From Sinosporangium siamense (lineage in GTDB: Bacteria > Actinomycetota > Actinomycetes > Streptosporangiales > Streptosporangiaceae), in contig NZ_BOOW01000006.1 of assembly GCF_016863435.1 (NCBI RefSeq), positions 558,001 through 622,000 of the forward strand: a stretch of DNA of 64,000 nucleotides. Direction: 5' to 3'. Of this stretch, positions 1 through 62,084 are shown piece after piece. The translations under genes were made by a program, and so were the position numbers. The notes beneath the pieces are model-generated. The model was not told where the DNA came from. It made no database searches and worked only from the letters and a program-made list of their open reading frames with translations. How positions within the stretch are numbered: position 1 is the first letter of the stretch; every line of letters begins with the position of its first letter.

Positions 1-84
1 AGCATGCCCAGCCCGAGCGACTTCGTGCCCGAGCTTGAGCGCCTCACGGCCGAACACCGCGACGCGGCGGTCTCCGGCGCCTGA
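1..84 (+). CDS. C-terminal end of a macrolide-type glycosyltransferase (partial)
   Basis: The first 27 codons in frame 1 form an open C-terminus ending in TGA at 82-84. It contains MPSPSDFVPELERLTAEHR. The glycosyltransferase at 5817-7097 ends with the closely similar MPSPNDVVPQIEELTARHR, so this is very probably the tail of a paralogous activator-dependent glycosyltransferase lying left of the window. That would give the cluster two glycosyltransferases. The assignment rests only on this internal comparison, because the catalytic domain is outside the window. Confidence 0.7.
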   Translation, partial: SMPSPSDFVPELERLTAEHRDAAVSGA

Positions 85-670
85 CGGGCTAGGGGAGGGG
101 GAGGACGGCGATCGGCCTCACCATGCGGGGCGTGACAGCCCGCGTGACTCCGGCACACGCCGCCGTCCTCCAGCGGGAGCCAGGGTGCACGCCACGGCGA
201 TGCTGCGCACGTCCTTGAACGCGGGAGTCGTACTTCCGGCGTTCAAGGACGTGCGCAGCTCGTCTGCGGGGAGTCGGAGCAGGGCGGCTCTCGCGTCCGG
301 CACACCTCACCGCCCTCGCTCTCACCCGCCGAGTACGGCATGAGCCTTGAGAGCGCCGGTCTCCGGGCCGGGCCTCGTTCCCGCGTTCGCCGCGAAGCTC
401 GGCCGGCCCGCCCGCGTGGCAAGACCCTGTGTGGCTCGGCGTCCACGTGCTGGGGGAATGCGACCCCGCATGCCAATGAGGGCGCGCCCGGCGACGCCGG
501 ACGGCCCTCACCGGCGGGCTTCGCCGCTCTCGCGGAACGGAGTCACTGTTCACCGCGACCGGGGACGCGGACACCCGGCTCCGCGGATGAGGACAGCGGC
601 TCCGCGGATGGGGACTCCGTCCGCGCGCACGTTCCCGCCCGGGCACCCGCGGAGACCGCGAAGGGGCCGC
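85..670. other. Non-coding stretch after the left-edge gene
   Basis: About 590 bp lies between two convergent genes. Reading frames here have arginine- and proline-rich translations without recognisable domains. Apart from the hairpin at 202-259, I see only a short direct repeat (GCGGCTCCGCGGATG-type units near 575-615). I find no further gene. Confidence 0.5.
202..259. terminator. Long perfect inverted repeat, probable terminator hairpin
   Basis: Two 21-nt arms (202-222 and 239-259) are perfectly complementary. They are separated by 16 nt that can extend the stem with a GU pair and one bulged base. The hairpin lies about 120 bp after the stop of the partial glycosyltransferase and upstream of the convergent gene ending at 671, so it could terminate from both sides. 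There is no T-tract, which is common in high-GC actinomycetes. A transposon end is an alternative, but no transposase is nearby. Confidence 0.55.
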
Positions 671-56204: not shown

Positions 56205-56873
56205 TTACCGTGAGGCGGACCGCCTACTTGAGCTGGGGTCGTCCGGGGCCGATAGCTGTGCCACGAGTTCCTTGAAGTTCCCCCTCTCGTTGAGCCTGGG
56301 GAACGCCTCATCCTTGGGCACGTCTACCTGGAGGAAGTCGCATAGCGGGCCCTAGCCTTGGTTGACCTCGAAGTCGAGGAGGCGGTCGGCGGGGATGTAG
56401 GCGCGCACCGCTTCGTTGTGCTCGTTGAACCACTCGATGGCGGTCTGCTTGTCGCTGATCTTCTCGGACAGTTTCCTGAACCAGTCGAGCGCGTCGTTCG
56501 CCGGTGCCCCGTCACGGCTCTCCATCGTCGTGAGGATGGTGGCCTGCACGCTCGCGTACCACGACTCGGGGTCGCGGGTGGTGAGGATCACCTTGGCCTG
56601 GGGGTAGGCGTCGGCCAGTTCACGCCAGAAGGCGGCGCCGGGAAAGTCGACGGTGGATCGGTAACCTTCGAACACCGATTCCCAGTCGGGCTTTCCGGCG
56701 AACGCGGATTCCCATTTGGCGGGGTGGTCGGGGTGGGTCATGAACTCGATCGCGTGATAGCAGGGGCCGAAGCCGAGCCTTTCCAGGGCCGCCTTCATCG
56801 ACAACGTGCCTGTCCGGCCGAAGCCCGCCCCGATGATCTCCAGCGTTCCAACTCCCTCGACGTCGGACTTCAA
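56205..56873 (-). pseudogene. Sulfotransferase-family gene interrupted by a TAG codon
   Basis: A P-loop sulfotransferase-like protein. It has the PAPS-binding GAGFGRTGTLSMKAALERL near the N-terminus, HPAKWESAF, VILTTRDPESWYASVQATI and RLLDFEVNQG. A TAG at 56352-56354 then stops it after 173 codons. Directly after the TAG the same frame continues GPLCDFLQVDVPKDEAFPRL to a TAA at 56205. Family members usually have Trp (TGG) at this point (QGWGPLC), so one G-to-A change explains the stop. The truncated product lacks the C-terminal helix. TTG 56873 follows GGAAGGAG. It is likely inactive, unless the stop is read through. Confidence 0.8.
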
Positions 56874-56940: not shown

Positions 56941-57882
56941 TCAGGGGCCGGTGATGTAGTTCACGAGTTCGCCGATGCCCTCGATACCGACGCGGACCTC
57001 GTCGCCGGCGCGCATGAACACCGGAGGTTTGCGGCCCATGCCGACTCCGGCCGGTGTGCCGGTGCTCAGCACGTCGCCGGGTTCGAAGCTGAAGTAGTGC
57101 GACATCTGCTCGATGAGTTCGGCGACGCCGGTCAGCAGGTCCGAGGTGTGCCCCTTCTGCATAAGCTGACCGTTCAAGGTCGTCGTGATGGTCAGGTTCG
57201 CCGGGTCGGTGATCTCGTCAGCGGTGACCACCGCCGGTCCCATCGGGCAGAAGGTGGGAAACTGCTTGCCCAGTAGCATGTCGCCCCAGGCCCACCGTCC
57301 CTCCTCCGGGGTGGTGGCGCTTGCGATCGCCGGGAAGGCGTCGCGGGCCGAGACGTCGTTGATGATCGTGTAGCCGCCGATGTAGTCCACCGCCTCCGCG
57401 GCGCCGACGGCGTGGCAGGCGCGGCCGAACACCACGCAGAACTCGCCCTCGAAGTCCACCATGTCCGGGGCCGCGCCGGGAATCCTCACCGATGCTCCGG
57501 AACCGATCACCGAGTTCGGAGATTTCACGAACCATGCGGGCTTCTTCGGCGGCTCCTCGCCCATCTCCTCCACGTGTGAACGGTAGTTCGTCCCGGCGGC
57601 CACGATCAGAACGCGTTCGCCCAGCGGTGCCAGGAGCGTGGCGGGGCGGGGAAGCAGCCAGCCCTGCTCCTCGGCGTGCCGGGGGTCGGCGTTGATCTTC
57701 GCCGTCACGTCCCGGACGGCGCCCTGATAGTCCTGCCCGCGCCGGAAGATGTCGGCGACGCTGGAGGGGACCGCGACGCCGTGCGCGTCCAGGACGCGGG
57801 GCAGGTCGACCACGCCGACGTCGGGCAGGTCGGCGCCGGGAGTTGAACGCCCGAACGGGTCCGCATAGCTGACGAGTCGCAT
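56941..57882 (-). CDS. Fumarylacetoacetate hydrolase (FAH)-family enzyme, copy 2
   Basis: A 313-residue FAH-fold hydrolase/isomerase, the last gene of the catabolic operon. It shows IVAAGTNYRSHVEEMGEEPP, the metal-binding E-x-E in DFEGEFCVVFGRA, the Asp in GGYTIINDVSARD and GDVLSTGTPAGVGMGRKPP. Such enzymes hydrolyse or isomerise acylpyruvates and related ring-cleavage products in the cytosol. ATG 57882 has GGAG 7 nt upstream; upstream sequence to 58091 is non-coding. A second FAH-family gene (62141) is in the same operon. Confidence 0.88.
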   Translation of the reverse strand: MRLVSYADPFGRSTPGADLPDVGVVDLPRVLDAHGVAVPSSVADIFRRGQDYQGAVRDVTAKINADPRHAEEQGWLLPRPATLLAPLGERVLIVAAGTNYRSHVEEMGEEPPKKPAWFVKSPNSVIGSGASVRIPGAAPDMVDFEGEFCVVFGRACHAVGAAEAVDYIGGYTIINDVSARDAFPAIASATTPEEGRWAWGDMLLGKQFPTFCPMGPAVVTADEITDPANLTITTTLNGQLMQKGHTSDLLTGVAELIEQMSHYFSFEPGDVLSTGTPAGVGMGRKPPVFMRAGDEVRVGIEGIGELVNYITGP

Positions 57883-58091
57883 GAGGTTTCTCCAAACGAT
57901 TGCGCGGCGTGGGCAGCCGTCGTGAACGAACAGCCGGCCGCAGCAGTGCGGGCCGGCCTCTCCGGTGGCGGTTGGACGCGATCTCGGCCGAAGGCCGAAG
58001 GCCGAGGCGCGAGGCTCCGCCGTACCGCTGCGAGCCCCACCCGCATCGGTGCGGGGCCGGCGCGAGCGGTACGGCGGGGCCGCGCCGGCCG

Positions 58092-59048
58092 CTACATGAA
58101 GCTCTCGGGCGGGAAGGTGCCCCACTCGTCCATCGATCGGTGGTCGCCGCCCGACCAGCGCTGCGGCGAGTAGTTCTCGTCGTCGAGGATGGTCTCCTCC
58201 TCCGAGGAGAACTCCATGATGTGCCCGACGTGGTCACGGAAGTAGATCGCGACGTTGTGGCCGGGACCGTGGCGCACCGGCCCCCAGAGGATCTCCACTT
58301 CGTCATTCCTGGTCATCGCCTCGTGGGCCTCAAGTACGGCGGGGCCGTCCTTGACCGTGAACTGCACGTGATGCAACCCGTTGACGTCGGCGCGAGCCAG
58401 CGCGAGGCAGTGGTAGAGCTTGTTGGCCCGGAAGAACGCCATCAGCGGGGAGTTGTCGGGCAACTGGATCCGCGAGCTCTCCATCAGGCCCAGCGTCGTC
58501 GACGCGTACGCGATTTCCGCGTCCATGTCGACGGTGCGCATCACCACGTGGTCCGACGCGATCGGTGCCGGCACCGCGGTGGGGCGCCGAGTGGAGGCGG
58601 CCACCGGTACGTCCGGGGCGAGACCGGTGATGAGTTCGATCGGGTGACCGGCCGGGGTCTGGAACCTGATGGACGGTCCCTGGCGGAACCGCGAGGTTCT
58701 GTCGTCGCGGGTGACGGCGACGCCGGCCTTGGCGAGTGCCGCCGCGGCCTCCTCAAGCGCCTCCGCGTCGGTGACGATGTAGGAAATGGCCTGCAGGCCC
58801 TTCTCACCCGGCGCGTAGACGAGCGAGTAGGCGTCCGGTCCGTGCCCGGCCAGGTAGTGGCGGCCGTCGTCGTCGTGGCCGGCGTGAACAAAGCCCAGAT
58901 GCCGGACCGCGAAGTCGGCGGAGGCCGCCGGGTCGGGGCTGAACAGTGTGACGTGGCCGGTGCGGTGGATGCCCAGCCCCTTCGGCTTCTTGACCGGCTC
59001 GCTCGTCTGCGGGATCTGCAGGAATGTGGATTGGGCGTGGACGGACAT
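58092..59048 (-). CDS. Two-domain VOC protein, extradiol dioxygenase-like
   Basis: A 318-residue protein with two vicinal-oxygen-chelate domains (about 28-145 and 165-290). Possible metal ligands are present: His in RTGHVTLF, His in NGLHHVQFTV and Glu in VGHIMEFSSEEE. The 2-His-1-Glu set is typical of catechol 2,3-dioxygenase-type ring-cleaving enzymes. The substrate is probably a catechol or hydroxylated heteroaromatic acid made by the pathway. ATG 59048 is used. It lies 209 bp upstream of FAH copy 2, which could process its product. Confidence 0.82.
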   Translation of the reverse strand: MSVHAQSTFLQIPQTSEPVKKPKGLGIHRTGHVTLFSPDPAASADFAVRHLGFVHAGHDDDGRHYLAGHGPDAYSLVYAPGEKGLQAISYIVTDAEALEEAAAALAKAGVAVTRDDRTSRFRQGPSIRFQTPAGHPIELITGLAPDVPVAASTRRPTAVPAPIASDHVVMRTVDMDAEIAYASTTLGLMESSRIQLPDNSPLMAFFRANKLYHCLALARADVNGLHHVQFTVKDGPAVLEAHEAMTRNDEVEILWGPVRHGPGHNVAIYFRDHVGHIMEFSSEEETILDDENYSPQRWSGGDHRSMDEWGTFPPESFM

Positions 59049-60998: not shown

Positions 60999-62084
60999 TC
61001 ACGCCTGGCGCACGCATGCCCGCTCCTGGTAGAACCCGAGTGCCTTGAGAACGGGGATGTCGGTGTGTGAGAAGAGGACGGCCGGCTCGTTCTCGGTGTT
61101 GATGTGCTCGTGCACCGACCATCCCGGCACCGTGAAGGTGTCGTGCTGAGACCAGTCGAGCACCTCCCCGTCGACGATCGTCTGCCCCCGGCCGCGCACC
61201 ACGTGGTAGATCGCGCTGCTGGTGTGCTGGTGCGCCTCGGTGTGCATCTTGGCCGGCAGCGCCTGGATGTAGGCACCCATGGTCGGCATGATGGGGCCGC
61301 CGCTTTCCGGGTTGGTGAACTCGAAGATGACGCCGTCTGTCGGCGAGCCCACCCACTCGTCGAGTGCGGACTTGAGCAATTGCTCCGTCACGCTCCACGG
61401 GTAGTTGATAAGAGGCGAGTACGGCTTGTCCCACGTCTTCCAGGCCGGGTTCAGCCGGCTCGCGGCGTACAGACGCTCGGTCGAGTCGGCGGAGCGCAGT
61501 TGCTCCTGGGCCTGTTCAGGTCCGTCGACGAAGAAGTTCGACTCCAGCTTGTTGATCAGCGGCAGGTCGAGCCCGTCCATCCACACCACCGGCTCGTCGG
61601 TGAAGTTGCCGTGGTCGTGCCAGGCCCAGGACGGGGTGAGCACGATGTCGCCGGGGTGCATGTGCGCTCGCTCGCCGTTCACCGCGGTGTAGGCGCCCGT
61701 CCCTTCGATGACGAACCGGAAGGCGGCGGCGGCGTGCTTGTGCATCGGCGCGATCTCGCCCGGCAGCACCAGTTGGATCCCGGCGTAGAGGTTGTTCGCG
61801 GTTTCCACTTCGGGCGCCAGGCCCGGATTGATCAGCATCAGGACGCGCCGCTCCGCCTCCTCCGCGCTGATCAGCCGGCCCGCGGTCATCAACTCCCGGC
61901 GGACGTCGGCGTAGCGCCAGACGTACGGCACAGCCTGGCTCCTAGGCTCGGTCGGCAGCAGTCGCGGGTCGGTGTTGCGCCACAGCGGCTCGACGTTGAG
62001 CGAGCCGAGGCCGCGGTAGTACTGCTCTTCGCCGCCTTCTGCCGCGCCGCCGGGTGCGCTCGTTGCTTCGATGGACTGGGTCAC
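60999..62084 (-). CDS. Gentisate 1,2-dioxygenase-like bicupin
   Basis: A 361-residue bicupin. Cupin 1 (about 95-190) has MHKHAAAAFRFVIEGTG and PSWAWHDHGN, with three His in ligand positions. Cupin 2 (about 270-350) has HTEAHQHTSSAIYHVVRGRG and PGWSVHEHIN. The set-up matches gentisate/salicylate-type dioxygenases, which cleave the ring between carboxyl- and hydroxyl-bearing carbons using Fe(II). The product would be an acylpyruvate suited to the downstream FAH enzymes. GTG 62084 has AGGAG 6 nt upstream. Exact substrate (gentisate, salicylate, hydroxynaphthoate or a heteroaromatic) is not determinable by eye. Confidence 0.85.
   Translation of the reverse strand: MTQSIEATSAPGGAAEGGEEQYYRGLGSLNVEPLWRNTDPRLLPTEPRSQAVPYVWRYADVRRELMTAGRLISAEEAERRVLMLINPGLAPEVETANNLYAGIQLVLPGEIAPMHKHAAAAFRFVIEGTGAYTAVNGERAHMHPGDIVLTPSWAWHDHGNFTDEPVVWMDGLDLPLINKLESNFFVDGPEQAQEQLRSADSTERLYAASRLNPAWKTWDKPYSPLINYPWSVTEQLLKSALDEWVGSPTDGVIFEFTNPESGGPIMPTMGAYIQALPAKMHTEAHQHTSSAIYHVVRGRGQTIVDGEVLDWSQHDTFTVPGWSVHEHINTENEPAVLFSHTDIPVLKALGFYQERACVRQA

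Follow-up and report, generated by a model that had tools for sequence, protein, structure and literature searches.

Locus and family assignment

Does a small sulfotransferase frame that is broken by one in-frame TAG still specify an enzyme, in short or full-length form, or is it a disabled gene? The question is raised by a locus on the minus strand of the window, by which we mean the whole stretch of 64,000 nucleotides that was analysed. The features concerned are the following:

56205..56873, minus strand: interrupted Sulfotransfer_4 (PF17784) frame, from TTG at 56873 to TAA at 56205, with one internal TAG
56871..56873, minus strand: TTG codon 1, the only in-frame ATG, GTG or TTG ahead of the domain
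56841..56846, minus strand: codons 10 and 11, reading ACG CTG, at the start-codon column of the relatives (47/47); possible start loss
56352..56354, minus strand: in-frame TAG, codon 174 of 222, at a column that is Trp in 47/47 aligned relatives
56208..56351, minus strand: family-like tail of 48 codons after the TAG, with all seven conserved columns counted past codon 174 kept
56941..58125, minus strand: gene of the fumarylacetoacetate-hydrolase family (PF01557), directly upstream across a 67 bp gap

The TAA that closes the frame (56207..56205) lies 48 codons beyond the TAG, and a second internal stop is absent, the reading holding as far as the TAA. With a curated cut-off of 22.8 bits for PF17784, the head up to the TAG scores 168.8 bits; reading the TAG as Trp brings the entire frame to 215.4 bits. 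No NCBIfam match was obtained for the head alone or for the frame with the stop as Trp. In the source genome (8,855,038 bases in 84 contigs, completeness 99.09), PF17784 is represented by this strong match and one weak match of 25 bits, just above the cut-off. The first-pass annotation had described a single in-frame TAG at a conserved Trp of a sulfotransferase, and the family match and the Trp found in all 47 aligned relatives agree with this description, the strand being minus. The tail that it quoted, GPLCDFLQVDVPKDEAF, does follow the TAG.

The N-terminal GxGRTGTxS-like stretch, which we take to play the role of the PAPS loop in Sulfotransfer_4, is kept (G15, G17, R20, T21, G22, T23, and S25). 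The C-terminal GW.PLC.FL...P...FP..N block is present in the DNA frame, but it lies behind the TAG, which falls at its W. The same-strand run of genes in which the frame lies also includes glyoxalase-fold, NAD-binding, YCII, cupin, second FAA-hydrolase, and amidohydrolase genes, and judging from these families the same-strand neighbours of the sulfotransferase gene appear to resemble an aromatic-catabolism cluster.

Conservation of the stop column and of the tail

From longer lists of family matches, 48 of the best-scoring loci were taken (from the search of the family genomes, up to 30 of the many places listed), and 47 of them were aligned; L022 was dropped, its chosen open frame falling short of the stop column, although a weaker tblastn stretch of this locus has W there. 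The column of the TAG is occupied by W in 47/47 aligned relatives, and all of them continue past it through a GW.PLC.FL...P...FP..N-like block. Five further loci (L115-L117, L118, and L119) also have W at this position. Homologues that naturally end at the stop column, which the first-pass annotation had named as one of two findings that would count against its reading, were looked for and amount to 0/47, so a natural short form of the family is rejected for these best-scoring relatives. At the 40 columns on which at least 45 of the 47 relatives agree, the gene keeps 39, and the sole departure is the TAG itself.

The 48-residue tail alone scores 33.6-33.7 bits (E 1.5e-12) against a profile of the 47 relatives, whereas among 2000 shuffled versions the highest score with the same profile is about 7.4 bits. 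As the score of the tail is far above that of the shuffles, the continuation beyond the TAG is not due to chance, in line with the family similarity that the first-pass annotation had noted over these 48 codons. The openness of the frame is unremarkable by length alone, as the next in-frame stop in other TAG-ending genes of the window is found 4 to 228 codons on. It is thus the family similarity of the tail, rather than its open length, that carries weight. The GC content at third codon positions is 0.88 before the TAG (173 codons) and 0.81 after it (48 codons), a difference too small to use.

Further members of the family whose matches carry a stop flag could share this TAG, and this was ruled out for those that were aligned or inspected. 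The column is occupied by W in L012, L014, L016, L031, L038, and L050, all of which continue past it. At both places in genome G074, the flagged TAG lies just upstream of an ATG. L117 (contig C151 of genome G037) has W at the column, and its match is split across two frames, the shift falling between residues 49 and 66; this locus is perhaps another broken copy. The match in L022 (1626-2135, from an Ilumatobacteraceae MAG) is likewise divided over different frames and contains a stop. Eight more listed places carry a TGA flag.

Predicted structure and consequences of truncation

With the TAG translated as Trp, the frame is predicted to fold with a mean pLDDT of 88.9 and a pTM of 0.85. Residue 174 opens a predicted helix spanning residues 174-181 and sits in a stretch of ten residues whose pLDDT averages 98; the last helix of the model spans residues 197-208. 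The nearest solved structures by fold are Cpz8 (9kf2), then SgdX2 (8y9p), and the same two come first by sequence. As the ranges aligned with both pass residue 200, a product of 173 residues would lack part of the fold.

These data bear on the idea that the gene encodes a functional truncated protein ending at codon 174, the remainder being dead DNA. Such a protein would keep every conserved column ahead of the stop, and the score of the head alone with PF17784 is in its favour. However, the part removed includes a confidently predicted helix and a conserved C-terminal block that continues in 47/47 aligned relatives, and every conserved column of the supposedly dead tail is still in place. We consider this reading quite improbable.

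Decoding of UAG in the source genome

If the UAG were read through or suppressed to some level, a full-length enzyme would be made, and all conserved columns after the stop being kept is in favour of such decoding. In addition, passages of PMC7918605 propose that in-frame stops are under purifying selection in many bacterial genes.

The source genome was considered with regard to its tRNAs, release factor, and other internal stops. It gives 64 tRNA matches (RF00005), and a CUA anticodon is found in 0/63 of the tRNAs to which ARAGORN gives an anticodon; a tRNA-Trp with a CCA anticodon is present at L076. The 64th match, L113, is truncated; its loop, read by eye, shows CGG, a proline-type anticodon. 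This piece (contig C35, 93662-93720) scores 41.5 bits, lacks an ARAGORN call, and may be what is left of the attachment site of an integrated element. The best matches to PylS in the source genome score 22.3 and 21.4 bits, below the cut-off of 178.15, and 13 of 14 control genomes give PylS matches, one of them above the cut-off. The release factor that reads UAG is RF1, and it is present (493.7 bits).

Internal stops are absent from the 91 PF00106 matches, and internal TAG is absent from the 150 PF00005 matches that were scored among 374 candidates, giving no internal TAG in the 241 listed matches of the two families. The sole internal stop among the 150 listed PF00005 matches is a TAA, in contig C30 (108552-108989). 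A rough gene call of the window gives 50 frames, nine of which end in TAG: this gene, a doubtful frame at 61405-61692, and seven others that all have Pfam matches. The tetranucleotide CTAG is rare in the window as a whole (24 observed, about 64 expected from plus-strand CTA, TAG, and TA counts), and the stop of the sulfotransferase frame sits inside one.

The missing CUA anticodon, PylS scores below the cut-off, the presence of RF1, the absence of TAG from the listed matches, and the use of TAG to terminate other genes of the window all argue against read-through, which we regard as very improbable; the first-pass annotation, which had kept read-through or suppression as a remote option, is upheld on this point. 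A variant is that the TAG is tolerated, near-cognate decoding of UAG together with a weak TTG start yielding a low dose of enzyme and the tail staying under selection. The conserved tail is compatible with this variant and nothing was found in positive support of it; we hold it to be highly doubtful.

Start region

The start codons of the relatives were taken as candidates by column, the family start being put directly before the first strand. A possible start is found at the column of codon 10 in 33/47 relatives (25 ATG, 7 TTG, and 1 GTG) and at the column of codon 11 in the remaining 14/47. At these two codons, the window gene has no ATG, GTG, or TTG and reads ACG CTG.

A GGAG is located 5 nt ahead of the ACG (codon 10). 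The TTG at codon 1 is preceded by an AAGGAG at only 3 nt, and by an in-frame TAG five codons before it. In 45/47 relatives, the longest ribosome-binding motifs all lie at least 4 nt before the start, and the two exceptions, L021 and L047, list farther motifs too. Two G074 relatives have leader DNA with an in-frame TAG opposite codons 5-10, although over codons 5-11 their sequence agrees with the window gene at just 12/21 bases. In the predicted model of the window gene, residues 1-4 have a pLDDT below 50 and residues 1-10 average 53. From these observations, two readings seem about equally probable: translation now begins at the TTG, nine or ten residues ahead of the family start, or the gene has lost its start as well.

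The start region also bears on a single-base assembly error, by which the gene would be intact in the organism. The TAG sequence was found in one assembly only, the window's own, an assembly of 84 contigs, and stands without independent support; outside the start region, the frame is otherwise undamaged and conserved, as would be expected of such an error. On the other hand, the A of the TAG lies outside any one-base run, though bordering GGG, so the commonest, indel-type error is inapplicable, and one wrong base leaves the unusual start region unexplained. An assembly error is unlikely in our judgement, though less so than a functional truncated protein or read-through.

Age of the lesion

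The first-pass annotation dated the lesion as very recent, on the ground that no other damage was visible. This stands insofar as the frame has no further stops or frameshifts. The start region departs from that of the family, and if the start has also been lost, the claim of no other damage is wrong. The bound on divergence is also loose. About 3.4% of random single changes in the gene's own codons make a stop, and, if 0.05-0.2 indels are assumed for each substitution, the lack of any further disablement limits the neutral divergence since loss to 5.3% to 1.9% (95%). A bound of this size indicates that the lesion is not old, rather than very recent.

Relatives close enough for a clock or a dN/dS estimate were sought in several collections, and none was found in those covered. 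In the genus (two genomes, own included), the match of the other genome is only 50% identical. In the family, 169 of the 297 genomes searched have a match, own included. In the class, 4 of 394 genomes have a match at E <= 1e-60, own included, and the other three show 49-54% identity. Among plasmids, 18 records have a match, all with less than 60% identity to the window gene, and the genome_contigs search gave one locus. The best relatives among the loci compared reach 56-57% identity. In the tree, the window gene stands alone, outside any starred group, at the end of a branch of 0.7 changes per column.

Two points count against a pseudogene: the codon-position bias is not visibly eroded, and the other conserved residues are kept, so decay is little advanced, or absent under the rival readings. 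The loss of function, as well as when and in which order the lesions arose, is inferred, and a fairly young loss is the most likely reading.

Most probable explanation and its implications

Based on these observations, the locus is probably a small Sulfotransfer_4 gene that a nonsense mutation has made into a pseudogene: a premature stop lies where the relatives continue, and family-like sequence follows it. The TAG would have arisen by a single base change from the invariant Trp codon with which a core helix begins. The protein would then end after 173 residues, without the helix 174-181, the conserved C-terminal FP..N stretch, and the final helix (197-208). Judging from the predicted fold, such a product most likely lacks activity or stability. 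The normal start codon of the family may have been lost too, in which case the gene would be silent regardless. Taken together, the pseudogene is most likely real, not old, and possibly start-damaged as well.

For annotation, the entry to be made here is that of an interrupted gene rather than of a 173-residue enzyme. For dating, a clean frame bounds age loosely, and start codons should be checked besides stops. Were read-through true, the locus would be a test case for a tolerated UAG with no suppressor tRNA found in the genome; nothing points to it, and the significance beyond annotation is little.

Comparison with known systems

With regard to solved structures, Cpz8 (PDB 9kf1/9kf2) belongs to the same family and has the same fold, with a profile score of 288.6 bits. 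Comparison of Cpz8 (9kf2) with the predicted model gives a Z of 26.2 and an rmsd of 2.3 over 204 aligned residues (model range 8..212), with 45% identity. Cpz8 has an intact GWEPLC block and a C-terminal PFPHLND, whereas the window gene has a TAG at the corresponding W. Cpz8 acts in caprazamycin biosynthesis in Streptomyces, whereas the immediate neighbours of the window gene look aromatic-catabolic. According to passages of PMC6731281, Cpz8 is PAPS-dependent and sulfates a triketide pyrone, and passages of PMC11677658 indicate that it can sulfate phenols. The nearest solved members of Sulfotransfer_4 are PAPS-dependent.

SgdX2 (PDB 8y9p) is of the same family (259 bits), with a Z of 25.8 and an rmsd of 2.3 over 188 aligned residues (model range 9..204). 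It is intact, its alignment running on through GWPTLC, where the window gene is interrupted. A title cited in PMC11677658 names SgdX2 as an activating sulfotransferase of sungeidine biosynthesis. Sulfotransferases of Schistosoma (e.g. 4mua and 5tiv), among them the oxamniquine resistance protein, are distant relatives that share the fold, with 173.6 and 176.3 bits, a Z of about 21-23, and 32-34% identity with the model; these are eukaryotic and intact.

In the genes described in passages of PMC7918605, a frame that is otherwise conserved is likewise interrupted by TAG, and the case illustrated there comes from Paenibacillus, in a family given the name of PAPS sulfotransferase. In that case, eight sequences have TAG and ten have CAG at one position. 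In contrast, the TAG of the window gene is in one genome, at a Trp column, and the stop is common to no examined relative. As a probable pseudogene, the window gene is an ordinary case in a known enzyme family.
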